From contig CM026397.1 in the NCBI GenBank assembly GCA_014843695.1, positions 35,933,586 to 35,997,585 of the forward strand: DNA of 64,000 nt, read 5' to 3'. Made by a program: the position numbers and the translations under genes. The notes below the pieces were generated by a model. It was given only the letters and a program-made list of their open reading frames with translations, was not told where the DNA came from and searched no databases. Below, piece after piece: positions 12,291 to 58,535 of this stretch (position 1 is its first letter; every line of letters begins with the position of its first letter). This DNA comes from Archivesica marissinica (taxonomy: Eukaryota > Mollusca > Bivalvia > Venerida > Vesicomyidae).

Positions 12291-24562
<12,272 letters not shown>

Positions 24563-33037: not shown

Positions 33038-35026
33038 ATGGAAAATAAAGATCTAAATCAGAAGCTTTACGAGAGACTTTTAGACGTAGTAGGCACCGAA
33101 GACGATATTCGATCAAGGCAAGATATGTTCAAGTATATGGACATAGTTAATGGTTTTGGTGATAGTGATTCGATTTCGATTTCTGCCGGAAGTCTGTCTG
33201 AAGGTATTGACCTGAAAGGGAGTGATGAAGATATTATGCTTGTGCTAAAAAATATAGACGTTGTTCCTGTAGAAGACAATCAACATAAAGAAGGAATTGT
33301 GAATGTCAACATGCAACTTGATACAGTTCGACATGGATACGCAAGTCTTTTCTTGTCAGAGGAAGAAGAACAGTTCGTTAATAATAGTCAAAACACAGAA
33401 CGTTCTGAAGTACGGAACATAAAGTGCTCCATTCAGACAGCGAGTGGTCGGTGTATTGTTGCAAGTTCTAGATTCAGGGGTCAATTTATAAGACCAGGTA
33501 ATGAAAGTCATGGTCCGTGCATAAGCGACGGTGATTTTGATTTTGCGATAAGTTTACACGGATCTGTATGGCCACACAGTGCAAAACAACGGATAACTGC
33601 TTGTAAGAGCAAACGTTGGATTTCGAATGAGTTAGCAGACGTTCTTATGTCAGAAGGTTGTATTTATGTACCAGTAGGACCACGGCACTACTACCATGGT
33701 ACACTATGGAGAATTTCATTTGCTAAATCAGAGAAACGTTTGATCATGTCAATGAATCACAGCCAGGTATTATGCTACGGCTTGCTGAAAATAGTTTTGA
33801 AAGAAGGCATCGCAAAACAGCTCCCAAAGAATGATATCATTTGTTCCTATTTCTTAAAGACATGCTTGTTCTGGCTTATTGAAGAGACCGATAATGACGA
33901 AGATATATGGAACATTAATTGTCTGTATCGTTGCTACATTATGTGTCTCGATAAGCTGATGGAATGGGTACAAACGTGTAACTGTCCAAACTATATTATC
34001 CCCGAGAATAATATGTTTTTTGGAAAGATAGACAAAGATAACAAATCGAATATTCTAAAAGTTCTGTCTACATTCAAAGATAGCGGTTATGACGCTCTGT
34101 CACAATGTGAAACTTTAGGTTCATTCATGACCTCAACGAGAAAGCTCTCGGCCGCTGAGCGGGAAGCGAAATTGGATGTCCTGTGTTTTAGAGTATTGCA
34201 CATTTATCCATTCGACGATACAGGTCTCCTATTGTCGGCTTTGACCGTTATGGAGACCGAGTATAAAGCACAAACGAACCACTTCACAAAAGGAGTTATA
34301 TCCGGATTGATGTCTTCACTCCATCAAGAGTATGCTCAAATGGTTAGACCTTCTGAAAACGATGAAAACGTACAGCGAATACAACAAGTGCAAAAGGAAC
34401 ATTTACTGAAAGGATGTAGATCAGACAAACTATGTGGACTGATTCTTCTTGCATCATTTCATCACACACATGGATTTCATTACACAGCAATCGAAATACT
34501 GAACACTGTAACTGAAACACTATTAACGTCTGATTCGGGACTATTGCTTCGACGAAAGACGGAATACACAGAAGAAGAAATATATATGTATACATCTAAG
34601 TTTTGTGGGCGAGATCACACCTTAGAAAAGAAACTCGAAGATGCAACGGTCAGGGCTATTGTCTTTCTCGATAACTCTCCGATAGTTCCGAAAGAGTTTC
34701 AACCAGAAGTACACAACTACCGGCCACTGATTCTCGTTTCACCAGTCGTGTATGCATATGCATTGAAGTATTTATGTCATTACCATGTCAATGACAAGCA
34801 GAAATCACAAGACGCCCTGGAAATGCTCGATCATATCATTGATACACGGTTCCAAATCATAAATAGACATTATTCAAGTGCGTATACATTTGTGGGAGCA
34901 TGTTATGAGACTGATGGAAATTACGAAAAGGCTACGAAATACTACGAGATGGCTTTGACATGCAAAGAAATTTGCCAAAGTGCTAGTTATCGCCTTCAAC
35001 GCATTGAAACATATCATAAATGCTAG
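33038..35026 (+). CDS. Mab-21/cGAS-like nucleotidyltransferase (cGLR-type), intronless, with C-terminal TPR-like motif
   Basis: Single-exon frame of 662 residues. The nucleotidyltransferase signature is GSLSEGIDLKGSDEDIM at residues 51-67: a GS loop followed by acidic metal ligands (D63 and D65). A third acidic position is likely D168 in DFAISLHGSVWP, which resembles the stretch of cGAS carrying its third catalytic aspartate before a WP pair. WRISFAKSE at 224-232 matches the conserved WRxSF...E of the Mab-21 fold, followed by helical C-lobe sequence (HSQVLCYGLLKIVLKE). The cGAS zinc-thumb His-Cys cluster is not visible. Residues about 612-645 (FVGACYETDGNYEKATKYYE) form a TPR-like helix pair. 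Family enzymes make cyclic dinucleotides on sensing nucleic acid, or act as non-catalytic Mab-21 proteins; activity here is inferred from retained acids. A SINE ends about 50 bases upstream and a LINE 3' end starts just after the stop. Confidence 0.9.
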   Translation: MENKDLNQKLYERLLDVVGTEDDIRSRQDMFKYMDIVNGFGDSDSISISAGSLSEGIDLKGSDEDIMLVLKNIDVVPVEDNQHKEGIVNVNMQLDTVRHGYASLFLSEEEEQFVNNSQNTERSEVRNIKCSIQTASGRCIVASSRFRGQFIRPGNESHGPCISDGDFDFAISLHGSVWPHSAKQRITACKSKRWISNELADVLMSEGCIYVPVGPRHYYHGTLWRISFAKSEKRLIMSMNHSQVLCYGLLKIVLKEGIAKQLPKNDIICSYFLKTCLFWLIEETDNDEDIWNINCLYRCYIMCLDKLMEWVQTCNCPNYIIPENNMFFGKIDKDNKSNILKVLSTFKDSGYDALSQCETLGSFMTSTRKLSAAEREAKLDVLCFRVLHIYPFDDTGLLLSALTVMETEYKAQTNHFTKGVISGLMSSLHQEYAQMVRPSENDENVQRIQQVQKEHLLKGCRSDKLCGLILLASFHHTHGFHYTAIEILNTVTETLLTSDSGLLLRRKTEYTEEEIYMYTSKFCGRDHTLEKKLEDATVRAIVFLDNSPIVPKEFQPEVHNYRPLILVSPVVYAYALKYLCHYHVNDKQKSQDALEMLDHIIDTRFQIINRHYSSAYTFVGACYETDGNYEKATKYYEMALTCKEICQSASYRLQRIETYHKC

Positions 35027-36509: not shown

Positions 36510-36838
36510 ACACACATTATAATTCATATTTCTTGTAATGCAGAACTTGTATTTGTCAGAACACGCAGCACCAAATTATAATTCATGTTTCTTGTAATGC
36601 AGAACTTGTATTGTCAGAACACGCAGCACCAAATTATAATTCATGTTTCTTGTAATGCAGAACTTGTATTTGTCAGAACACGCAGCACCACATTATAATT
36701 CATGTTTCTTGTAATGCAGAACTTGTATTGTCAGAACACGCAGCACCAAATTATAATTCATGTTTCTTGTAATGCAGAACTTGTATTTGTCAGAACACGC
36801 AGCACCACATTATAATTCATGTTTCTTGTAGCAGTGGC
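36510..36838. repeat. About 59-bp minisatellite, 5 units, in the CARD gene 3' UTR
   Basis: The unit contains TTATAATTCATGTTTCTTGT and TCAGAACACGCAGCACCA. Alternating TATTTG/TATTG variants give a dimeric pattern. The gene-proximal copy overlaps the last codons and stop of the CARD gene. Confidence 0.93.
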
Positions 36839-37249
36839 AGGATATGTTGTGGTGTACATGTGGTGTTGTCTGCTAGTTCATCATGAACGTTCTCATATAT
36901 AGTAATAAGTTCCGCGAGAGAGGGTCGTCTTTCCGCCCGCAAGTGTTCGGCCTCAGTTTGGGATTCCTTTCGACGCTTCATCTCCAGTTTCAACTTTTCG
37001 TTCATAGTTGATAATGGTTTTGATATACCTGTTTTATCGCTTATGCTCGTAGGCATATTTAAACCGGAAGAACGAGTGTCTGTTGGGCTCCGTATGTATT
37101 GCGAAGCTGGTCCGAAAAGGTCGAGATTAACTGCATCAAGTTTTGTATGACGTCTACGTCTGTGTGGTGGGGTCAGCGAACGTTCCAAGTTAACATCTGC
37201 TAATGAACCTCTTCTTATAGGCGGAGGTGAGTCGGTCTCTGGATAGAAT
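36817..37249 (-). CDS. CARD gene exon 7 (C-terminal region, stop)
   Basis: 433 bases from a TTTTAAAG acceptor to TGA at 36819-36817. Encodes SPPPIRRGSLADVNLERS, TPPHRRRRHTK, a long charged helix (NEKLKLEMKRRKESQTEAE) and the terminal ILPLLQET. Proline and basic rich, probably disordered apart from two helices. The stop codon lies inside the first unit of a 3' tandem array. Confidence 0.85.
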
Positions 37250-40200
37250 CTTTAAAAGAAGAATAAAGTATGATATGACTGTATCATCCCAACTGAAATG
37301 CAACCAATGTGCATTATTATATTTTGAGAAATACCATATAGTATGTACATACACGTAACAGACTACATTGTCGTAATATTGTGATCAAACTTCAACTATT
37401 ACCAGGTCCACAGTGGTAGCGCGTTCGCTTCAGGTGCAAAAGGTCTGGAGTTCGAGCCAGGATTCCATCAGGAATGATGTCTCGATAGTTATTAATATAC
37501 AGTGTAAGTTGTAAGAAATTGTTTCGCAATCGAGCTAAAATAAATTTGTATAAACTAAGTTGGCGCGACGTTAATCACCACAAACAACAACAACAACAAC
37601 AACAACATGTTCCGTCATAACTGATGCTACTAACCTGTCGAATTGTTCATATACTCTTTCTATCTCCCTAATCGAGTCGGGTGAATCACGTGTTAGTGAT
37701 GACATTGAAAGTCTAGGGAAAGTAGTATGTCGACGAGAAGGGCTTGTACAGCCCCGATTCTGATCCAATATATGAGTGTTCTCCATAATTAGATCGGAAA
37801 TCTGGCTGTCTTTCCATTCAATTTTCTTTTTCATGTGTACAACTTCTTCTCTGAAAAACAAACAATTATAAAACTCCATGATGTATCATAATGGTTCAAT
37901 CTTCTTATACAGTCCATACTGATCAATATACCACATCCAGATTAGCCAGACCACCCATTCAAATTACTGTTTCAAACGACCACCATTCTGGTCTCTCATC
38001 AAATCGTTATCAATGTAGTTCAACCTGTCACGAGAGAGCATCATATGCTGTCAGCATTTCTTTAGCAATCTCCTTAGCTATTCTTTGCAGATAGGTTTGA
38101 TTATACATTTATTCAGATTTATACAAATTTATTTAGCTCGATTGCGTAACAAGTTCTTACAACTTATATTAATCACTCTCGAGACCTCATTTCTGATGGA
38201 ATCCATCGGCACGAAAGATAGAGAGAAGAGGCAACGTGGAATTTAAATGCCTTGGCACAAGCGTAACGGCTCCAGCGGGGCACGAACTCCGGGCCTTTCG
38301 CACCTGAAGCGAACGCGCTACCACTGCGCTATCATGACTTGCACCTATTGATTATTGACAACTATTTAAATAACTACAAAGTGATAAACAGTTATACTAC
38401 AAGTATGTACAGAAGTATGATGAAAGCAAACCATGTATTGTCGATATGTTATTAAACATATATATATATATATAGTCTACATCCATTATGTCGAATAATC
38501 CGGTTATCTCGTAGTCGGACCAAAGTCCCGTTTCAGACACTATCATGTTACATATAACTGGATCTGTTTATACCGAATTTCGAAAGTATTTTGTTCGGTC
38601 CGACGGAATTCGACATAAACGGATGTAGACTGTAGATATATAAGAGTACTATAATAAGGTAGTATGCATAGCTGATAACGTAAAATAAATAGTACCGCAA
38701 CAGAGCCATCTGTGAGTTTAAATGTTTTAAGTCTGTATGTGCAGGGCTACTGGTCATCTTCGATCTCAACTTTGGACCTCTCACTGAATCCAGTAAATGT
38801 GTCAGTTCATTTGCAATGGACATTGTTCCACGCTCTTGCTTTGCCACGTACTGCTGTACAATCTCGGATAATGTATGTTGCTTATGGCGAGAGGATGTTC
38901 GAAGCAGGTTCAGCACTGTTTCCTTTTCACTTATACTGCTGGAGGTGCTTTCTATATTTATTCTGGCAATTTTAATAAGTTTCCTGACATTTCTCTCCAA
39001 AACAGATATCTTAATATTGTCTGAATCGTCTTCCATATCTTTCTGTTCTGGATCGAGGAACTGGCGCATTGCAATATTAACAGTTTTTACTCGCTCATTG
39101 AACTTATCAAAGCGGTCTCTAAGTTGTATGACAGAACTGTTGTTTGCGGCATTGAAGCGTGTTTGCTTAGCCAACTCGTGTTTGAAACTTATCTGCATCT
39201 CTCCTATGTCATTCTGCAAATTAGTTATTTCATCGTCACGTGATTTAAGCTCCCCCTTCTGTCGCAAACATGCTTCTCTCAGTTGGATCATCTGCAAAAA
39301 TGTTTAACTTTAGAATAGGCACACCGCATGGAAGCAGCATGTACACATCTATAGCTGTCCGATTAGCGCAGTGGTTAGCTCGCTCGCTTCTCAGATGGTA
39401 CGGTGGTTGCCATATCGGACAGGTGGGTTTTCTCCGGGTACTCCGGTTTCCTCCCACACGAATGACCACATTTACGCTTTCATCCGCGCCAACGAGAGTG
39501 ATTAATATAAGTTGTTTGAACTTGCTTCGCAATCGTTGTAAAATAAATAAAGTTTAAACTTAAACATCTATAGTGTAAACATGTATTACCATGGTAGTAG
39601 AATCAGCAGCAATACTAGGGTATTGGGGTTGACGATATTTACAAAACATTTGTGGAAGTCGTGATAGCGCAGTGGATGCGCGTTCGCTTCAGGTGCGAAA
39701 GGTCCGGAGTTCGAACCCCACTGGAGCCGTTACGATTGTGCCCTTAGGCAAGGCATTTAAATTCCACTTTGCCTCTTCTCTCTCCCTCGTGGCGATGGAT
39801 TCCATCAGGAATGAGGTCTCGAGAGTGATTTATATAAGTTGAAATAACTTGTTTCGCAATCGAGCTAAAATAAATTTGTATAAACTAAAACATTCTGGAT
39901 AAAAACAGAACTTGACACATTTATATATGCTTTGTGCATGCTTTCGTGAAAGAACTTAAGCTATGGCTTATACTGAAGAAAGAACTTAAGCTATGGCTTA
40001 TACTGAAGAAAGACACTGCGACGTTGGATTGGTATTTAAATATACTATCCAATAACGGTATTTGGCACAAATATAGATACGAAGTCGGCTCCGGGGATAA
40101 CAAATGGTAAATAATTATCATACCTTTTTTGTTTTTATTTCCAGTTTCACTCTATAATCTTTTTCTGCATCATAATGGATTTTCTTTGCCTCCAATAAGT

Positions 40201-43200
40201 CGGTTCTTTCTTGTCCCGAGGTGAGCCATGCATTAGTAATTGCCCGTTCCTTCACCTGTTTCATGACAATTAATACAAAGATACTTATTATACCTATATA
40301 ATCACAATAAATAGTACCACGCAAAGCTAGTCTGGACGCCATTCAGACTTTAAGATTCTTTATGTCGAATGTTTATTATGAAAATAAGGAAATAAGCAAA
40401 TAAATAAAAACAAGTAAATGTCACAGGAAGAGAACAATATGTAACCAACCCAGGGTTAGAACCCGTCACTTTACGCTGATCTCACAGTCCTTTGGTTTGT
40501 GAGCAATTTGGATGCGTGCATGTAGCGACTTAAATCTATACGATTTGAATTAATATATTCCCAGAGAAGATCGAACATGTTTGCAATGTAATATGAATGT
40601 AATCGAAAATGAATTTCACTTCCTACTGATCTGTCCAAAATACTATAATTTATGTAGAACATTTTTAAGCCATATTTTTGTCATTGTCCGACACTACAAA
40701 CATTCGATCATCTAATGAGCTCTAGAAACCCAAAATTAATTAATAATTTATAAAAATATTTGCATTTCGCTTTTAAAGAAAGAGAACGAACAATTAATAA
40801 ATTCTATGAAATATTAATAGTTTTTGCTTTAAAGATCACCCTGTACTTTTATTTAATAATAGAAAATAAGGTAGAACACAATAGTATTTAAACTTCTCTG
40901 TAAATTGTCTTTGCACTTTACATATATTGTTAATTGTGCTATGCTATGTTATACTATTCTATGCTATGCTATATACTATGCTCTGCTATGCTATGATATG
41001 CTATGTTATTATATGATATGATATGATATGATATGCTATGCTATGATATTATATGCTATGCTCTGTTATTCTGCTATGCTATGCTATGCTATGATATGTC
41101 AATACATGTACTAATAGTATTATGATCCATTTGATTGACACCTGTACCTAGATACAAACAATACTAAGCAGAACATTAAAAATGTAATTTACAAAACTGA
41201 GGCTATCACCACACAACCTAAGGATTGAAACTGGTCGATACTGTAACATCGTATTGATCAAATCGAAATATTATGATTATTATGTAATACAAACAAGGTG
41301 GAAGATGAGTTTCACTTCATGTTTAAGTGGGGGGTGCATAGTACATTATGGAAAATCTATATCAAACGGTTTTATTCTAATCGACCAAGTATGTTCAAAT
41401 TATTGCAATTAGTTCAATGTTACAATATCGTAGAGCTGGTTAACCTTAGCAAATGTATCCAGGAAGCTTTATCCCTTGGTAACTCACTTGTTTAGAATGA
41501 ATGAGATGCCAGTTGGATGCATCCGATATTCTTATACAGTCATGATCATGTTTTACAGTTTCTATCATTCATGACGACATTGTCATTATGTTTCCAAGTA
41601 TGTTCATAATCGTTACATCATTTGTCCATCCTCATCAAGTGATAAATAAGTAATAAAGAATTCTTCTTCCTCTATAGTCCTGATATTATTAAACACACTG
41701 TGGGTGACATGATTTGTGGGGATTTTACCTTGGTTTCTAGATATCTTAGTAGCCTGGTCTTTGTATCATCACTAACATGATTGAATACTTTCGGGAACTT
41801 TCCAAACACTTCTTCTGCGCGCAGTAGTTTTGTCTCCATGTCTGAAATCAAATACGTTACGCTTTGTACAACCGTGTACGGCCGTTGACTTCAAATCACT
41901 TACCTCTCACCGCTGTAAGTTTGAATCCTACTGGTGGTGGTGGGGTGAATTATTCAAGTGTGGAAGCCATCCCGCTGGCTTGTCAGACGGTAGAAGGTTC
42001 TGGGTACCCGTCCGTGCCTGAAATACTTCTTGAAGGGCACCCGGGTGGAGAGGTGTCATGTGACTTAAACTGTTGGTGCGAATTTTAAACCTCTAAAACA
42101 AACAAATAAACAAACACACGCTGTGTTCAAGCAGAATATAACCTTCTCGCCGATGCTTATTTACCATTGACAAACGTTTATTTTAGTATAGCTAACATGG
42201 ACAGTGGCTATGCTGGGTATGCTTACAAACAGTCATACTCTGTGCTGTCCGATTAGCGCAGTGGTTAGCGCGTTCGCTTCTCACCAATGCAACCCGGGTT
42301 CGATTCTCGGACCGGGAAGTATGTGAGATGGTACGGTAGTCGCCGGATCGGACAGGTGGGTTTTCTCCGGGTACTCCGGTTTTCTCCCACACGAATGACC
42401 ACATATACGCTTCCATCTGCGCCAACGAGAGTGATTGGTATAAGTTGTTGGAACTTGCTTCGCAATCGTTGTAGAAGTTTAAACTTTCTGTGCTAATGCA
42501 ATGAAACGTGTATTCCACGGGGCGGTACATACATGTAGTTTTAATGCATACATATTTAGGCTTCAATGGCGGTGGTATAATGAATTTGCTTAGTTTGGAG
42601 TTCCGGCTCACCAATATCTGAGAGCTTACGGACTGATATCTGACCAACAAATGTTCTATCAAGTATTAATTGACACTGACCGCCATTATTAAGCATATAT
42701 ATACACATGTACGTTTTAAATCGAGAATATGTAACTAGTATTATTGGGGTGTTGTTTAAATGTGCTACTAACCCTCCCCATGCAGGTGATCAGCCAACAA
42801 AAGATGACCAGTCATGTATAAAACATGGCGGAACTTCCGGTACGAGTCACCACCACGCAGGCGCAGTGTCTCTAGCAACTTTGTATTCCTTTCAAATTGC
42901 GATTTTCTTGTCTGAAAGCAATGAAAAAAATAAACTCGATATAATTTATATATAGGATCATCTTTCATTTGAAGAAACAGTCCAGCGCCATGAATTCATG
43001 AAACAGTCCAGCGCCATGAATTCATGAAACAGTCCAGCGCCATGAATTCATGAAACAGTCCGGCACCATGAATTCATGAAACAGTCCAGCGCCATGAATT
43101 CATGAAACAGTCCAGCGCCATGAATTCATGAAACAGTCCTGCGCCATGCATTCATGAAACAGTCCGGCGCCATGAATTCATGAAACAGTCCAGCGCCATG

Positions 43201-46200
43201 AATTCCTGAAACAGTCCAGCGTCATGAATTCATGAAACAGTCCAGCGCCATGAATTCATGAAACAGTCCAGCGCCATGAATTCATGAAACAGTCCAGCGC
43301 CATGAATTCATGAAACAGTCAGCGCCATGAATTCATGAAACAGTCCAGCGCCATGAATTCATGAAACAGTCCAGCGCCATGAACTCATGAAACAGTCCAG
43401 CGCCATGAATTCATGAAACAGTCCAGCGCCATGAATTCATGAAACAGTCCAGCGCCATGAATTCATGAAACAGTCCAGCGCCATGAATTCATGAAACAGT
43501 CCAGCGCCATGAATTCCTTCACAACATTGTGGAAGTCGTAATAGCGCAGTGGTAGTGCGCTCGCTTCAAGTGTGAAAGATCCATCCGGAATTCGCACCCA
43601 GCTGTAAACGTTACCATTGTGTCCTTAGACTAGGCACTTAAAATCCACATTGCCTCTTCTCTCTCCCTCATGACAATGGATTCCACCAATGAAAGAGGTA
43701 TCCACAGCGATATATATAGCATAATGGTGTAAAAAAAACAAGAACATTGTATCATGTATTGGCAGATATTATACCAAACCTGAAAACAGACAATACACCG
43801 TTTAAGCTATTTATTTGGGAAGATAGCACTGTGCGCGGCGCTATAGTCACATTAAATATCAACTCTGCTGCAAATTTAAAACTAAACCTTGATATAATAT
43901 AGTATACACTCAACAAAATTCCTAATCGGTCACCTGGTATTTTATAATATGTGGAGCTAATTAATAATCATACAATATAAATATTTTCTTATTGTTATTT
44001 AATGCATTTTATCCGAAATGATTATACAGCAATCATGTGTAACCATCTGTAATAATATCTAACCAATACCATGATATGAATTGATATTATTGGTAACTCA
44101 TCTTTAGAAGATAAAATAGTTCGGTTACAAAAGAGAGCAGCTAGACTAATTCTAGATCAGGACTTTGACACTCCATCGCAATTATTATTCTCCCAACTAA
44201 AATGGATGACCTTTCCAGAACGAGTCATATATCAGAAGACTATACAAATGTATAAAACATTACATGGAGCTGCTCCAGACTATTTAAAATCGTCCTTCTC
44301 TTTTACTTCAGATATACATCCTAGAATTCTTAGATCAACCTCAGAATATCAATTATACACACCAAGACCAAATTGTGAATTATTTCGTAATACATTTGAA
44401 TTTTGAGGATCATCTATTTGGAATTCATTGCATCACCCAGTTCAAAATGCTCCAACTATCCAACAGTTCAAAATTCTCTACTTAAGGTGGAACTATAACA
44501 ATTCAAACTAATCGCGTACTTCTACTGTTATTATAAACGTGTATTGCCATTGCTATATTTATTAGAATCGGAAAATTGCTGTCTTTAAGTTGATTTCATA
44601 CATATTTTGAAGATACCACTACAAGTCAAATATGCACATTGTTAGATAGATCTAGTATCATTAATTGTCTCATTCCCATTTTCTACTCTGCTAGCCAATT
44701 CCATATATCATCATATTCCATTACATATTAAATATAGTTTCTCTATTTTTCAGCTTTTACATTACTATATTATTCCAATGTGCAGTTCTCACTTATAGTG
44801 CTATCTTTTGATTGCATTTGATTGTATATATGTTGAGGGCCTCATGGTAGATTAACTTTTGTTAAATGAGTACTCTCGTTAAATAAGGTCTTTATTATTA
44901 TTATTATTATTATTGTTTATTAGTTTGTTCCAAATACTGTAAAACACCAGGTGACCGATTAGGAATTTTGTTGATTGTATATAATAATTATATATTTCAC
45001 GAAAACAATGTTTCTTTCTCTATTACTATATCATCTACAACTCCAGCTTCTGTACAAGTGTAATATTGCTTAGCCCCTTTCTCTATTACTATATCATCTA
45101 CAACTCCAGCTTCTGTACAAGTGTAATATTGCTTAGCCCCTTTCTCTATTACTATATCATCTACAACTCCAGCTTCTGTACAAGTGTAATATTGCTTAGC
45201 CCCTTTCTCTATTACTATATCATCTACAACTCCAGCTTCTGTACAAGTGTAATATTGCTTAGCCCCTTTCTCTATTACTATATCATCTACAACTCCAGCT
45301 TCTGTACAAGTGTAATATTGCTTAGCCCCTTTCTCTATTACTATATCATCTACAACTCCAGCTTCTGTACAAGTGTAATATTGCTTAGCCCCTTTCTCTA
45401 TTACTATATCATCTACAACTCCAGCTTCTGTACAAGTGTAATATTGCTTAGCCCCTTTCTCTATTACTATATCATCTACAACTCCAGCTTCTGTACAAGT
45501 GTAATATTGCTTAGCCCCTTTCTCTATTACTATATCATCTACAACTCCAGCTTCTGTACACGTGTAATATTGCTTAGCCCCTTTCTCTATTACTATATCA
45601 TCTACAACTCCAGCTTCTGTACAAGTGTAATATTGCTTAGCCCCTTTCTCTATTACTATATCATCTACAACTCCAGCTGTTGTACAAGTGTAATATTGCT
45701 TAGCCCCTTTATAGAATATGTAAGTACAAACAGACGGGTGTGTAGTCCGGTGGTTAACACGTTGGGCTGGTAATCCAGGGATCGCAGGTTCAATCCCCCG
45801 ATTGATCCTAATAAAATTAACAGTCTTTCAGATGGGACATTAAACCGAGGTCTCGCGTCGGTGCTGTATACCGTGCACGTAAAAAAACAGAGGAGACTTT
45901 CTGTATTATTGCACTATCCTCCAAAAATCTAAAATGACTAATCTTTTCAGGAGGCGTCACTCATATGGGCAACCGGCAGCGACGATAAATAAACGTAAAA
46001 CACATACATATCAAACAATGTCCGCCAAGCTTTCTTATTTTAAAAATGTTACTCACATGTGACTTCCGTGGAGATGGATTTATATGAAGGTTTTCGAAAG
46101 CATGTTTCCACGCCCATTGCAACTATTATATGTGTTTGTATTTTATTTTATTAATATATACTACATGTACTTACACTATATTCAACATATTGTAATACTA

Positions 46201-46351
46201 TTGAAGCTAAATGTACCTGTATATCTCGAACCATTGTATCAGGAAGAACGTTTTCGCTTCGTAAAACATGGAAGAATTCCTCACTCATCACCATGTTCCC
46301 AACCAGTAAACCATTGTTCCTCTCTAGTATCCATTTCTGTTTCTCGTCCAT
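36817..46351 (-). CDS. CARD-coiled-coil protein, seven-exon gene
   Basis: Coding exons 46217-46351, 42773-42911, 41729-41841, 40124-40255, 38696-39291, 37635-37850 and 36817-37249 join in phase into a 587-residue protein. Residues 1-91 form a CARD: MDEKQKWILERNNGLLV, then LRSENVLPDTMVRDIQ, and across the first intron LRLRGGDSYRKF...YMTGHLLLADHL, the classical helix-5/6 signature. Residues about 95-400 are charged and heptad-like, with RDRFDKFNERV and VLERNVRKLIKIARINIE, consistent with coiled coil. The C-terminal 200 residues are rich in Ser, Pro and Arg (SPSRRHTTFPRLSM, TPPHRRRRH) with a short terminal helix. CARD-coiled-coil proteins such as CARD9/CARD11 are filament-forming signalling adaptors. 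Orthology is not claimed: the CARD differs from the CARD9 type and no MAGUK module follows. Convergent with the cGAS-like gene. Confidence 0.87.
37405..37560 (+). mobile_element. SINE B with internal deletion
   Basis: Head GTGGTAGCGCGTTCGCTTCA and B box GGAGTTCGAGCC, then direct joining to GATTCCATCAGGAATGATGT and the tail. In the CARD gene's last intron, antisense to the gene. Confidence 0.83.
37635..37850 (-). CDS. CARD gene exon 6 (coiled-coil end and Ser/Arg-rich stretch)
   Basis: 216 bases between TTTTTCAG and AG|GTTAGT, phase 2 to 2. Encodes EEVVHMKKKIEWKDSQISDL, then SPSRRHTTFPRLSMSSLTRD, with possible basophilic phosphorylation sites (RLSMSS, SRRHT), then a helix IREIERVYEQFDR. Confidence 0.84.
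38108..38345 (-). mobile_element. tRNA-derived SINE, family B
   Basis: Minus-strand copy from the tail (TTTATTTAGCTCGATTGCGT) to the head (CACTGCGCTATCATGACTT), in a CARD gene intron. Confidence 0.88.
38696..39291 (-). CDS. CARD gene exon 5 (long coiled coil)
   Basis: 596 bases between TTTGCAG and GCG|GTACTA, phase 0 to 2. Strongly charged with leucine or isoleucine heptads (MIQLREACLRQKGELK, EITNLQNDIGEMQ, IQLRDRFDKFNERV, SVLERNVRKLIKI). This is the core of the predicted coiled coil, residues about 174-372. Confidence 0.87.
39350..39562 (+). mobile_element. SINE family C (B-box deleted)
   Basis: GATTAGCGCAGTGGTTAGCT, then a jump over the B-box segment to GATGGTACGGTGGTTGCCAT; otherwise complete. 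In a CARD gene intron. Confidence 0.87.
39656..39893 (+). mobile_element. tRNA-derived SINE, family B (full length)
   Basis: Clean copy from GTCGTGATAGCGCAGTGGAT to the TAAATTTGTATAAACTAAA tail, about 90 bases after the family C copy. Confidence 0.92.
40124..40255 (-). CDS. CARD gene exon 4 (charged helix)
   Basis: 132 bases (44 codons, phase 0 to 0) between AAACAG and AAG|GTATGA. Encodes VKERAITNAWLTSGQERTDL, then a Lys/Glu/Asp-rich helix ending in EIKTKK. Confidence 0.82.
40540..40900 (+). mobile_element. LINE ORF2 C-terminal fragment
   Basis: The plus frame REDRTCLQCNMNVIENEFHF continuing LLICPKYYNLCRTF is the Cys/His-containing ORF2 C-terminal motif; later sequence is decayed. Confidence 0.8.
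40930..41100. repeat. (TATGC/TATGA)n pentanucleotide microsatellite
   Basis: About 30 imperfect pentamers CTATG/ATATG, in a CARD gene intron. Confidence 0.93.
41290..41500 (+). mobile_element. LINE ORF2 C-terminal fragment
   Basis: KVEDEFHFMF, then KLLQLVQCYNIVELVNLSKC, resembles the ENEFHF...motif and the terminal helix of the fragment at 40540. Probably a second decayed copy. Confidence 0.6.
41729..41841 (-). CDS. CARD gene exon 3 (linker helix)
   Basis: 113 bases from a TTTCAG acceptor to AAG|GTAAAA. Continues the frame as DMETKLLRAEEVFGKFPKVF, then VSDDTKTRLLRYLETK: charged, helical, no recognised domain. Restores phase 0. Confidence 0.82.
41855..42105 (+). mobile_element. SINE family I
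   Basis: tRNA-like head remnants (CTTACCTCTCACCGCTGTAA, GTTTGAATCCTACTGG B-box-like) and body GCCATCCCGCTGGCTTGTCA and CCGTCCGTGCCTGAAATAC. Related to 53570-54040. Confidence 0.7.
42245..42487 (+). mobile_element. tRNA-derived SINE, family C (full length)
   Basis: GTCCGATTAGCGCAGTGGTT, B box GGGTTCGATTCTCGG, body GGGTACTCCGGTTTTCTCCC, and the tail shared with family B. In CARD gene intron 2. Confidence 0.9.
42773..42911 (-). CDS. CARD gene exon 2 (CARD helices 4-6)
   Basis: 139 bases from a TTTCAG acceptor to a GTTAGT donor, leaving phase 1. Encodes TRKSQFERNTKLLETLRLRG, then GDSYRKFRHVLYMTGHLLLA. The GDxxYxxFxxxLxxTG pattern identifies the second half of a CARD. Confidence 0.88.
42975..43518. 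repeat. 26-bp minisatellite, about 21 units
   Basis: The unit is ATGAAACAGTCCAGCGCCAT plus GAATTC, very homogeneous; contains EcoRI-type palindromes. Lies about 60 bases from CARD exon 2, inside the intron that splits the CARD. Confidence 0.96.
43530..43728 (+). mobile_element. SINE B (diverged)
   Basis: GTCGTAATAGCGCAGTGGTA head, body and degraded tail; directly follows the 26-bp array. Confidence 0.8.
44080..44930 (+). mobile_element. LINE 3' end with (ATT)n tail
   Basis: The plus frame contains LQKRAARLILDQDFDTPSQL, then YKTLHGAAPDYLKSSF and YTPRPNCELFRNTFEF followed by a stop and WNSLPH. Same family as 165-760. The tail contains GAGTACTCTCGTTAAATAAG and (ATT)n at 44888-44915. Confidence 0.83.
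45005..45712. repeat. 63-bp minisatellite, about 11 units
   Basis: The unit contains CTCTATTACTATATCATCTA and CAACTCCAGCTTCTGTACAA; almost no divergence. 63 is a multiple of three, hence a 235-codon open frame that is not a gene. Confidence 0.96.
45731..46012 (+). mobile_element. tRNA-derived SINE, family A
   Basis: Plus-strand copy with head GTGTAGTCCGGTGGTTAACA, B box GGTTCAATCCCCC and family tail; follows the 63-bp array and precedes CARD exon 1. Confidence 0.9.
46217..46351 (-). CDS. CARD gene exon 1 (CARD helices 1-3)
   Basis: ATG at 46351-46349, 45 codons, ends CAG|GTACAT in phase 0. Encodes the first half of the CARD (MDEKQKWILERNN...VLPDTMVRDIQ). The start is chosen because CARDs commonly begin MDEK-like at this spacing; no further upstream in-frame domain sequence is seen. 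Confidence 0.85.
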
Positions 46352-47619: not shown

Positions 47620-49655
47620 CTTGCTATTTTACATTACATTACATACATCACATTACATTATATTACATTACATTACATGCATTACATTACATTACATACA
47701 TTACATTACATTACATACATTACATTACATACATTACATTACATACATTACATTACATACATTACATTACATTACATACATTACATACATTACATACATT
47801 ACATTACATACATTACATTACATACATTACATTACATTATATTACATTACATTACATTATATTACATACATTACATTACATTACATACATTACATTCATA
47901 CATTACATTCATACATTACATTACATTACATACATTACATTACATTACATTACATTACATTACATACATTACATTACATTACATACATTACATACATTAC
48001 ATTACATTACATACATTACATTACATTACATACATTACATACGTACATACATTACATTACATTACATACATTACATTACTTACATTACATTACATACATT
48101 ACATACATTACATTACATTACATTACATACATTACATTACATTACATACATTACATACATACATTACATACATTACATTACATTACTTACATTACATTAC
48201 ATACATTACATACATTACATTACATTACATTACATACATTACATTACATTACATTACATTACATTACATTACATACATTACATTACATACATTACATACA
48301 TTACATACATTACATACATTACATTACATACATTACATACATTACATTACATACATTACATTACATTACATACATTACATTACATACATTACATACACTA
48401 CATACATTACATTACATTACATACATTACATTACATACATTACATACATTACATACATTACATACATACATACATTACATACATTACATACATTACATAC
48501 ATTACATACATCTTACATTACATACATTACATACATTACATTACATACATTACATTACATACATTACATTACATTACATTACATTACATACATTACATAC
48601 ATTACATACATTACATACATTACATTACATTACATACATTACATTACATTCATTACATACATTACATTCATTACATACATTACATTACATACATTAATTA
48701 CATACATTACATTACATACATTACATACATTACATACATTACATACATTACATACATCACATTACATACATTACATTACATACATTACATACATTACATA
48801 CATTACATACATTACATACATTACATACATTACATACGTACATACATTACATACATTACATTACATTACATACATTACATACATACTACATTACATACAT
48901 TACATACATACATACATTACTACATTACATACATTACATACATTACATACATTACATACATTACATACATTACATTACATACATTACATTACATACATTA
49001 CATACATTACAACATTACATACATTACATACATTACATACATTACATACGTACATACATTACATACATACATTACATTACATACATTACATACATTACAT
49101 ACATTACATTACATACATTACATTACATTACATACATTACATTACATACATTACATACATTACATACATTACATACATTACATACATTACATACATTACA
49201 TTACATACATCACATTACATTACAGTACATACATCACATTACATTACATACATTACATTACATTACAGTACATTACATACATTACATACATTACATTACA
49301 TACATTACATTACATTACATACATTACATACATTACATACATTACATTACATACATTACATTACATACATTACATTACATTACATACATTACATTACATA
49401 CATTACAGTACATTACATACATTACATTACATACATTACATTACATTACATACATTACATTACATTACATACATTACATTACATTACATTACATTACATT
49501 ACAGTACATTACATACATTACATTACATACATTACATTACATTACATTACATTACATTACATACATACATCACATTACATTACATTACATTACATTACAT
49601 TACATACATTACATTACATTACATACATTACATACATTACATTACATTACATAAT
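47620..49655. repeat. TTACA/TACA satellite-like array, about 2.0 kb
   Basis: Interspersed 5-base (TTACA) and 4-base (TACA) units, mainly as ATTACATACATTACATAC-type text. No stop codon is generated in one frame, giving a spurious 710-codon frame. Confidence 0.97.
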
Positions 49656-50694: not shown

Positions 50695-51135
50695 ATAGTA
50701 AAAACTATGCTCTCAGACTGTATTTGTTCTTTGAGTCCAGGCCCATCAACAACTTATTGAGTTATCTTGTCCACATACATACACACGTGTTGGGGTTTGC
50801 ATCTCTCCGAGTGCTGTTCTCAATTTTGAAATTGGATATACCATTGGGTTTGGTACCAACAGTTAACTGGTTCACTGGCCATGCGTGTTCGTGCCAATTG
50901 TGTTGGTTTTCCCACGGCATGACCGATTTCATGTTCGTGTCTCATGAAAACATTATATTAATCAATGTCCACAGTTTGTTTTGATGTTCAGTGATTATTT
51001 ATTACCCTCTTAAAAGACATCTAACTATTCTTCAGCAATAAATATAATGTGAAGCGTATGACGTTTCAGTCCGTCCGAACAAGAACATCGATGCTATATA
51101 CAATGCAGGTTGACAATGGCAACACGAACACATCA
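50695..51135. other. Intergenic, unclassified
   Basis: An 86-codon plus-strand frame (50724-50984) has no recognised domain; no repeat family recognised. Confidence 0.4.
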
Positions 51136-51138
51136 ATT

Positions 51139-51378
51139 GGAAGTCGTGATAGCGCAGTGGATGCGCGTTCGCTTCAGGTGCGAATGGTCCGGAGTTCGAG
51201 CTTCGCTGGAGCCGTTACGATCGTGCCCTTAGGCAAGGCATTTAAATTCCACGTTGCCTCTTCTCTCTCCCTCGTGGCGATGGATTCCATCAGGAATGAG
51301 ATATCGAGAGTGATTAATATAAGTTGTAAGAACTTGTTTCGCAATCGAGCTAAAATATATTTGTATAAATTAACACAT
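51139..51378 (+). mobile_element. tRNA-derived SINE, family B
   Basis: Plus-strand full-length copy; AAGTCGTGATAGCGCAGTGG to the TTTGTATAAATTAAC tail. Confidence 0.9.
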
Positions 51379-54727: not shown

Positions 54728-54972
54728 GTGGAAGTCGTAATAGCGTAATGGTAGAGCGTTCGCTTCGGGTGCGAAAGGCCCGGAGTTCGAGCTTCCGCTG
54801 GAGCGGAGCCGTTACGGGTGTGCCCTTAGGCAAGGCATTTAAATTCCACGTTGCCTCTTCTCTCTCCCTTGTGGCGATGGATTTCATCAGGAATGAAATC
54901 TCGAGAGTGATTAATATAAGTCGTAAGAACTTGTTTCGCAATCGAGCTAAATTAAATTTGTATAAACATTAG
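54728..54972 (+). mobile_element. tRNA-derived SINE, family B
   Basis: Plus-strand copy with head GTCGTAATAGCGTAATGGTA and a small insertion (GGAGCGGAGCC) after the B box. Confidence 0.9.
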
Positions 54973-55199: not shown

Positions 55200-55575
55200 C
55201 TACATTTAAATCGACCAACTTCCAAATAGGAGGGGTACGGCTAGTTGCCCCCGACACTCGGTCACACTGCACCAAGTCGCATTTAAATTGACCAAGAGGT
55301 TTGGCAGGAGAAGCGAAAATAGAATTTCAATTTCCGTGGCAGCCATTTTGGATATCGGATCAGAACGATTTTAGCAAGTTTACTATTTGGCTGCCATGAT
55401 CCACACCCAGTTTTATAAAAATTGATCAAGCAGTTCGAGATGGGAAGCTGAATATCGATTTATCAGTAGGGAAAATTGGAATAATTTGAGCTCTTTTTGA
55501 TTCATTAGCGTGTTGCCATGATGCTCCGGACCAAGTTTCATCATAATTGGCATAGTGGTTTCATAGGAGAGTGTG
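55200..55575. repeat. Dispersed repeat adjoining the 50-bp array
   Basis: Contains GGTTTGGCAGGAGAAGCGAA and GACCAAGTTTCATCATAATT, text that from memory recurs in mollusc genomes. It leads directly into the first 50-bp unit. Confidence 0.5.
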
Positions 55576-58378
55576 GATGTACAGATGTACGTATAGCTGC
55601 ATGGCTGGTCATAGGAGAAAGTGTGGATGTACAGATGTACGTATAGCTGGACGGCTGGTCATAGGAGAAAGTGTGGATGTACAGATGTACGTATAGCTGG
55701 ACGGCTGGTCATAAGAGAAAGTGTGGATGTACAGATGTACGTATAGCTGGACGGCTGGTCATAGGAGAAAGTGTGGATGTACAGATGTATGTATAGCTGG
55801 ACGGCTGGTCATAGGAGAAAGTGTGGATGTACAGATGTACGCATAGCTGGACGGCTGGTCATAGGAGAAAGTGTGGATGTACGTATAGCTGGACGGCTGG
55901 TCATAGGAGAAAGTGTGGGTGTACAGATGTACGTATAGCTGGATGGTTGGTCATAGGAGAATGTGTGGATGTACAGATGTACGTATAGCTGGACGGCTGG
56001 TCATAGGAGAAAGTGTGGATGTACAGATGTACGTATAGCTGGACGGCTGGTCATAGGAGAAAGTGGGTGTACAGATGTACGTATAGCTGGACGGCTGATC
56101 ATATGAGAGTGTGGATGTATGCATAGCTGGACGGCTGGTCATAGGAGAAAGTGTGGATGTACAGATGTACGTATAGCTGGACGGCTGGTCACAGGAGAGT
56201 GTGGATGTACAGATGTATGTATAGCTGGACGGCTGGTCATAGGAGAAAGTGTGGATGTACAGATGTACGTATAGCTGGACGGCTGGTCATAGGAGAAAGT
56301 GTGGATGTACAGATGTACGTATAGCTGGACGGCTGGTCATAGGAGAAAGTGTGGATGTACAGATGTACGTATAGCTGGATGACTGGTCATAGGAGAAAGT
56401 GTGGATGTACAGATGTACGTATAGCTGGACGGCTGGTCATAGGAGAAAGTGTGGATGTACAGATGTACGTATAGCTGGACGGCTGGTCATAGGAGAGTGT
56501 GGATGTACAGATGTACGTATAGCTGGACGGCTGGTCATAGGAGAGTGTGGATGTACAGATGTACGTATAGCTGGACGGCTGGTCATATGAGAAAGTGTGG
56601 ATGTACAGATGTACGTATAGCTGGACGGCTGGTCATAGGAGAGTGTGGATGTACAGATGTACGTATAGCTGGACGGCTGGTCATATGAGAAAGTGTGGAT
56701 GTACAGATGTACGTATAGCTGGACGGCTGGTCATAGGAGAAAGTGTGGATGTACAGATGTACGTATAGCTGGATGGCTGGTCATAGGAGAAAGTGTGGAT
56801 GTACAGATGTACGTATAGCTGGATGGCTGGTCATAGGAGAAAGTGTGGATGTACAGATGTACGTATAGCTGGACGGCTGGTCATAGGAGAAAGTGTGGAT
56901 GTACAGATGTACGTATAGCTGGACGGCTGGTCATAGGAGAGTGTGGGTGTACAGATGTACGTATAGCTGGACGGCTGGTCATAGGAGAATGTGTGGATGT
57001 ACAGATGTACGTATAGCTGGACGGCTGGTCATATGAGAAAGTGTGGATGTACAGATGTACGTATAGCTGGACGGCTGGTCATAGGAGAAAGTGTGGATGT
57101 ACAGATGTATGTATAGCTGGACGGCTGGTCATGGAAAAGTGTGGATGTACAGATGTACGTATAGCTGGACGGCTGGTCATGGGAGAAAGTGTGGATGTAC
57201 GTATAGCTGGACGGCTGGTCATAGGAGAGTGTGGATGTACAGATGTACATATAGCTGGACGGCTGGTCATAGGAGAAATTGTGGATGTACGGATGTACGT
57301 ATAGCTAGACGGCTGGTCATAGGAGAAATTGTGGATGTACAGATGTATGTATAGCTGGACGGCTGGTCATAGGAGAAATTGTGGATGTACAGATGTACGT
57401 ATAGCTGGACGGCTGGTCACAGGAGAGTGTGGATGTACAGATGTACGTATAGCTGGACGGCTGGTCACAGGAGAGTGTGGATGTACGTATAGCTGGACGG
57501 CTGGTCACAGGAGAGTGTGGATGTACAGATGTACGTATAGCTGGACGGCTGGTCATAGGAGAAAGTGTGGATGTACAGATGTATGTATAGCTGGATGGCT
57601 GGTCATAGGAGAGTGTGGATGTACAGATGTATTTATAGCTGGACGGCTGGTCATAGGAGAAAGTGTGGATGTACAGATGTACGTATAGCTGGACGGCTGG
57701 TCATAGGAGAAAGTGTGGATGTACAGATGTACGTATAGCTGGACGGCTGGTCATAGGAGAAAGTGTGGATGTACAGATGTACGTATAGCTGGACGACTGG
57801 TCATAGGAGAAAGTGTGGATGTACAGATGTACGTATAGCTGGACGGCTGGTCATAGGAGAAAGTGTGGATGTACAGATGTACGTATAGCTGGACGGCTGG
57901 TCATAGGAGAGTGTGGATGTACAGATGTACGTATAGCTGGACGGCTGGTCATAGGAGAGTGTGGATGTACAGATGTACTGGACGGCTGGTCATATGAGAA
58001 AGTGTGGATGTACAGATGTACGTATAGCTGGACGGCTGGTCATAGGAAAAGTGTGGATGTACAGATGTATGTATAGCTGGACGGCTGGTCATAGGAGAAG
58101 TGTGGATGTACAGATGTACGTATAGCTGGATGGCTGGTCATAGGAGAAAGTGTGGATGTACAGATGTATGTATAGCTGGATTGCTGGTCATAGGAGAAAG
58201 TGTGGATGTACAGATGTACGTATAGCTGGATGGCTGGTCATAGGAGAAAGTGTGGATGTACAGATGTATGTATAGTTGGATGGCTGGTCATAGGAGAAAG
58301 TGTGGATGTACAGATGTACGTATAGCTGGACGGCTGGTCATAGGAGTGTGGATGTACAGATGTACGTATAGCTGGACC
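55568..58378. repeat. 50-bp minisatellite, about 56 units (2.8 kb)
   Basis: The unit is GTGTGGATGTACAGATGTAC plus GTATAGCTGGACGGCTGGTC plus ATAGGAGAAA. Length variants lack AAA or the ACAGATGTAC decamer. Several 60-119-codon frames across it are artefacts. Confidence 0.97.
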
Positions 58379-58384
58379 ACTGGT

Positions 58385-58535
58385 CTCCTTTAATAGCTCG
58401 CTTCCAGCTACAGCTTAGATAGAAAACTCACTTTGAGTGTTATGGCTTAGATGAGTTATTAATCTCCCTTCGAGCTATAGCTTAGATGAGTTAGAAAACT
58501 CACTTCGAGCTATAGCTTAGTTAGAAAATTAATCT
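58385..58535. repeat. Imperfect 35-40-bp repeat, about 4 units
   Basis: Units share TTCGAGCTATAGCTTAGATG and GAAAACTCACTT; directly follows the 50-bp array. Confidence 0.8.

Follow-up and report, generated by a model that had tools for sequence, protein, structure and literature searches.

We found that a 64,000-nucleotide stretch of the genome of the bivalve Archivesica marissinica (contig CM026397.1; hereafter, the window) contains a gene conserved in bivalves, given here as a predicted gene model, that encodes a CARD followed by a linker, coiled-coil stretches and a tail, predicted to be mostly disordered, with RRxSL sites. Judged by its sequence, the CARD is of the type found in initiator caspases and RAIDD. 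With coiled coils joined to such a CARD, the protein appears to be a variant of the known CARD adaptors that is distinct from the CARD9/CARD11 branch. The original prediction, made from the DNA sequence without database searches, had joined seven exons into one gene and had recognized an N-terminal CARD, not of the CARD9/11 type, followed by coiled coil. These observations are confirmed, and the interpretation attached to them is partly supported. The resemblance of the CARD to those of caspase-9, CED-3 and caspase-2 is a point that it had missed.

Seven exons on the minus strand (Table 1) join to encode a protein of 587 residues with no internal stop, and all six introns have GT-AG borders. 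When the Mercenaria protein P0001 was compared to the window by tblastn, each of the seven exons was matched separately (E 1.8e-16 to 3.9e-68). The single match outside the exons was at chance level (E 0.80). Exon 1 has a GT donor after DIQ, and its start is common to the relatives. Two public gene models have gaps that correspond to exon borders seen in the window. In the Mya model P0007, 11 residues are missing just ahead of the border between exons 1 and 2, and 25 more are missing behind the codon that the border between exons 5 and 6 divides. Scallop isoform X2 (P0011) has a gap of 44 residues, as many as exon 4 encodes (132 nt), which the alignment puts four residues past the border. This evidence from the relatives replaces the argument from chance, that seven exons join in phase. 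An alternative exon 3 of 113 nt (41811-41699) is also open, and its product drops a stretch that is present in the relatives and gains one that is absent from them. We chose 41841-41729 because the relatives' sequences fit only that exon. With the window protein and 11 relatives as tblastn queries, we saw no convincing duplicate of the gene in the window beyond the seven exons (best match outside, E 0.39, within a minisatellite). Upstream of the ATG, a scan for sigma-70 promoters, which relies on a bacterial model, was at chance.

Table 1. The CARD-coiled-coil gene and the tandem repeats within or overlapping it (positions in the window).
Feature	Position	Strand	Description
Exon 1	46217..46351	-	135 nt; residues 1-45; start codon; predicted CARD helices 1-3; tblastn with P0001, E 1.8e-16
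Intron 1	42912..46216	-	3305 bp; splits the CARD; two minisatellites and dispersed repeats
Minisatellite, intron 1	45014-45710		63 bp x 11.1
Minisatellite, intron 1	42974-43516		26 bp x 20.9
Exon 2	42773..42911	-	139 nt; residues 46-91; CARD helices 4-6 (from relatives' models); tblastn with P0001, E 4.0e-20
Exon 3	41729..41841	-	113 nt; residues 92-129; conserved linker; tblastn E 8.3e-17
Exon 4	40124..40255	-	132 nt; residues 130-173; tblastn E 1.7e-19
Exon 5	38696..39291	-	596 nt; residues 174-371; most of the predicted long helix and first coiled coil; block with invariant FNAAN; tblastn E 3.9e-68
Exon 6	37635..37850	-	216 nt; residues 372-443; most of the second coiled coil; tblastn E 1.1e-24
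Exon 7	36817..37249	-	433 nt including stop; residues 444-587; tail, predicted mostly disordered; tblastn E 1.7e-30
59-bp minisatellite	36516..36830		overlaps the gene's last codons and stop; the unit carries a copy of that end

A protein database search with the joined protein gave eight relatives at E up to 1 (7997 candidates scored), ranging from Mercenaria mercenaria (E 7e-236, 66% identity over 100% of the query) to Mytilus californianus (E 2e-95, 41% identity over 79%). Residues 1-176 of the Mytilus protein, used as query in turn (600 candidates scored), matched four proteins: itself and three new ones, from Mytilus trossulus, Pinctada imbricata and Mizuhopecten yessoensis. That is, there were 11 matching proteins in total, from nine named species and one further source, and all of the named matches were bivalves. 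These fall in Imparidentia and Pteriomorphia. Two of the 11 appear to represent one and the same Mya arenaria gene, and the Dreissena entry is incomplete (79% of the query, with the tail absent). A profile of nine sequences, searched at E up to 10, found the same eight proteins again and no others (7997 candidates scored). The architecture had been suggested to be lineage specific, and the named matches agree with this within the reach of the searches, which is that of near relatives. Because database candidates had to share 5-residue words with the query, absence outside the matched taxa, including Crassostrea and gastropods, is not demonstrated. The gene had also been called undescribed. It is not new as a sequence, since its relatives are already public, unnamed or misnamed (two of them as ERC protein 2-like and myosin-8-like). 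The description can apply at most to function: our search of the open-licence literature found no functional study of this gene or its architecture, and no paper at all for the gene ids of six relatives.

The Pfam CARD profile (PF00619) matched the window protein over positions 4-83 of 85 (E 0.0017, 18.8 bits) and matched nine of nine members scanned at E up to 1 (best E 1.1e-6). The domain is predicted to adopt a six-helix death fold with a kinked first helix. Among the first 96 positions, 29 are invariant across 11 sequences, including R11, K71, R73, H74 and H81. Exons 3 and 4, which lie outside the CARD, are conserved about as strongly.

We typed the CARD by searching a profile of ten bivalve CARDs against all PDB sequences. 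The matches were to caspase-9 (E 2e-6), CED-3 (7e-4), RAIDD (0.003, over profile positions 1-73), BCL10 (0.005, over positions 3-62) and APAF-1 (0.7). None of the CARD9 or CARD11 chains was matched at E up to 10. As a control, a hand-entered fragment of CARD9 found seven distinct CARD9/CARD11 sequences in the same set. We also compared local alignment scores for 14 CARDs that were entered by hand and did not include bivalve caspase CARDs. Caspase-9 scored highest (30.3 bits), followed by CED-3 (27.4), caspase-2 (25.2), RAIDD (21.0), BCL10 (17.8), APAF-1 (12.9), NOD1 (11.6), ASC (6.4), RIPK2 (5.5), CARD11 (5.2), CED-4 (3.1), caspase-1 (2.7), CARD9 (0.7) and MAVS (-1.2). By the profile ranks and these scores, the CARD belongs with those of the initiator caspases and RAIDD. 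CARD9 and CARD11 are present in the lists of structure matches, at lower Z, so the exclusion from the CARD9/11 branch rests on sequence.

The region after the CARD is predicted to contain long helices. In the model of the Mercenaria protein, a helix spans residues 143-252, with a predicted local distance difference test score (pLDDT) of 90-95 over residues 161-230, and a further helix spans residues 358-398. We tested the periodicity of heptad positions a and d against 300 shuffles per segment, using the same residue numbers in the window, Mercenaria, Mytilus and Pinctada proteins. Segment 355-400 was clear in all four (matched by 0, 0, 0 and 2 shuffles, respectively). Segment 143-252 was clear in Mercenaria and Mytilus (0 and 0) and borderline in the window protein and Pinctada (24 and 32). 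Coiled coil thus follows the CARD, by the helices and the heptad test. Two other segments, 100-175 and 268-345, were unsupported as coiled coils (108-224 and 14-65 shuffles of 300).

We found no sign of the other domains that accompany CARDs in the systems considered below. At E up to 10, Pfam gave CARD and DUF2730 only for the window protein. The peptidase C14 domain was absent from these matches and from the 25 families listed among the matches of nine members, the NB-ARC ATPase and the death domain were absent from these matches and among the matches listed for nine members, and no WD40 region was found in the window protein. NCBIfam gave only weak matches among the relatives, many of them to coiled-coil proteins, and the window protein had no match.

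The tail had been described as basic. It is not, with 29 lysines and arginines versus 27 aspartates and glutamates in the 187 residues from 401 to 587, along with 20 serines and 16 prolines. Exon 7 encodes two like motifs in this one tail, RRGSLADV at residue 456 and RRPSLAEL at residue 551. Of the 11 sequences, nine have a site of the first type and six have RRPSLA(E/D)L; the Pinctada and scallop sequences have neither. In the Mercenaria model, the second site falls at the beginning of a helix predicted at 566-579. The RRxSL sites appear to resemble the consensus for basophilic kinases, and RRPSLAEL is reminiscent of the RRPS kinase site of CREB.

Parts of this architecture are found in several known systems. 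The initiator caspases caspase-9, CED-3 and caspase-2 are alike in the sequence type and fold of the CARD. In caspase-9 the CARD begins at residue 1, as it does here, and in caspase-2/9 the CARD is reported to lie on two exons (PMC7836458), also as here. We found no literature on CARD intron positions among open-licence papers, and a term search of a Mytilus caspase paper (PMC3037946) gave no mention of exons or introns. Unlike the initiator caspases, the window protein has coiled coils and no detected protease domain. RAIDD (CRADD) is likewise an adaptor with a CARD and no enzyme, and its CARD ranks fourth of the 14 by local score, but there the CARD is joined to a death domain, whereas here it is joined to coiled coils and a long tail. 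The CARD-coiled-coil (CARD-CC) proteins, CARD9/10/11/14 and their invertebrate counterparts, share the order of CARD then coiled coil but differ in the type of CARD, as judged from the profile and scores above. The original prediction had pointed out that no MAGUK follows. None is present, but this is not distinctive. CARD9 is without a MAGUK, the same is implied for the ancestral CARD-CC protein, and the fusion to MAGUK is placed in jawed vertebrates (Staal 2018, PMC5978004), so that invertebrate CARD-CC proteins would be without one too. Compared to APAF-1, CED-4 and Dark, the window protein has no nucleotide-binding or WD40 region that Pfam could find, and its sequence match to APAF-1 is weak. 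A CARD plus a coiled coil need not imply the CARD9/BCL10 branch, a distinction that is relevant to counts of invertebrate immune genes based on architecture.

We propose, tentatively and with a probability of roughly 45%, that the protein is an oligomerising CARD adaptor or regulator, a partner of CARD caspases that either activates them or restrains them. The coiled coils would self-associate and so cluster the CARDs. The clustered CARDs would then interact with CARDs of a similar type, the most likely ones being in the caspase-2/9-like initiator caspases of bivalves. This interaction could promote caspase dimerisation, as RAIDD does for caspase-2 but by another route, or it could hold the caspases back. 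The RRxSL sites could gate assembly. The filament-forming adaptor suggested by the original prediction is likewise a hypothesis. The conserved caspase-type CARD on a coiled coil would be a concrete candidate for a partner, or a brake, in the activation of bivalve CARD initiator caspases. Mytilus coruscus is reported to have 12 CARD-bearing caspases, with an expanded caspase-2/9 group (PMC10967218). One study did not find a direct homologue of caspase-9 in the bivalves that it covered (PMC7836458); in the later Mytilus study, six bivalve caspase-2/9 genes cluster with vertebrate caspase-9 (PMC10967218). A bolder form of the proposal, in which a CARD platform clustered by coiled coils activates the expanded initiator caspases as an apoptosome substitute built without an ATPase wheel, seems to us quite improbable. 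As background to both forms, two papers state that the oyster APAF-1 homologue has no CARD and that no CARD-bearing APAF-1 had been identified in Mollusca (PMC5550854), and that a BLAST search of the Pacific oyster genome gave no direct homologue of APAF-1 (PMC7836458).

Several points weigh against a role as a partner of CARD caspases. The CARD of BCL10, an adaptor in NF-kappaB signalling, scores closely behind that of RAIDD. In caspase-9, R10, R13, R52 and R56 join D27 and E40 of APAF-1 (PMC11755718). By an alignment that includes hand-entered sequences and is uncertain by ~1 residue, the four arginines are kept in 1, 1, 0 and 2 of 10 CARDs, and the two acidic residues in 1 and 0 of 10. With the contact residues kept in so few, neither of the two partner surfaces can be carried over, and the sequence does not reveal the choice of partner. 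Activation of caspase-2 can be explained with no additional adaptor, given the homologues of RAIDD and PIDD that one study reports from bivalves (PMC7836458). On its own, the window protein falls below the Pfam gathering score for CARD (18.8 versus 23.9 bits). Foldseek with the full model gave no match at E up to 0.001 (best 2.6e-3). The predicted template modelling score (pTM) is low, 0.24 in the models of both relatives, so the models do not give the arrangement of CARD and coil. Finally, the periodicity of the first coiled coil is clear in only two of the four sequences.

The protein could instead be a drifted CARD-CC adaptor of the CARD9/BCL10/MALT1 (CBM) type, with a CARD that would seed BCL10 filaments and feed into NF-kappaB signalling. 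The arrangement, a CARD and then a coiled coil without a MAGUK, is that inferred for the ancestral CARD-CC protein (PMC5978004). The BCL10 CARD is also among the matches, in both the profile search and the local scores. Set beside the higher-ranking caspase and RAIDD CARDs, we consider this unlikely.

It is similarly unlikely that the protein is a dominant-negative regulator, a protease-less CARD that caps or sequesters CARD caspases in the manner of ARC or ICEBERG and is anti-apoptotic. This would fit the same typing of the CARD and the lack of a catalytic domain found by Pfam, and it overlaps with the restraining form of our proposal. ARC and ICEBERG are short proteins, and a length of ~600 residues that includes conserved coiled coils points to a scaffold more than to simple capping; activation and inhibition are not distinguishable from these data. 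Less likely again is a structural coiled-coil scaffold, for example of the cytoskeleton or centrosome, that uses the CARD for self-assembly and has no role in death or immunity. The two coiled-coil names among the relatives and the conservation of exons 3 and 4 speak for it. Against it, such names may reflect only generic similarity, and the CARD is matched in every member scanned and is rich in invariant positions.

Intron 1 had been said to hold a minisatellite, a long interspersed element (LINE), another minisatellite and short interspersed elements (SINEs). Both minisatellites are there (Table 1), as are repeated stretches consistent with SINEs; the LINE stands only as a LINE-like open frame (44080-44403), identified by inspection, that has no Pfam match. 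Five of the six introns, all but intron 3, contain sequence that recurs at other places in the window (blastn, E up to 1e-8). An element of ~230 bp is present in many copies of ~70-89% identity (38117-38352, 39642-39896, 51132-51370, 54728-54966 and others). It has a tRNA-like part (Rfam tRNA at 38276-38331, in intron 5) and is probably a tRNA-derived SINE.

The 59-bp array at the 3' end of the gene appears to have arisen by expansion of the gene's own end. Exact copies of TACAAGAAACATGA occur four more times downstream of the gene, at 36772, 36714, 36655 and 36597. Beyond the array is a convergent (tail-to-tail) neighbour, a single-exon cGAS/Mab-21-like frame (33038-35026, plus strand; 662 residues from the first ATG). 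A scan of its residues 2-661 matched the Mab-21 C-terminal domain (E 1.1e-12), with Mab-21 nucleotidyltransferase and TPR below cut-offs, and its best solved relatives are cGAS (3.3e-10) and cGAS-like receptor 1 (7.9e-10). Farther away, in the region 14184-20956, there are leucine-rich-repeat (LRR) open frames on the minus strand at 17521-18129 and 20696-20956, with Pfam LRR matches below cut-offs, and a frame at 14184-14429, also on the minus strand, with no LRR match. Together, the frames in this region look like PPP1R42. On the other side of the gene, the window contains two large tandem arrays, one of ~2 kb of the TTACA type (47629-49653) and one of ~2.8 kb with a 50-bp unit (55561-58385).
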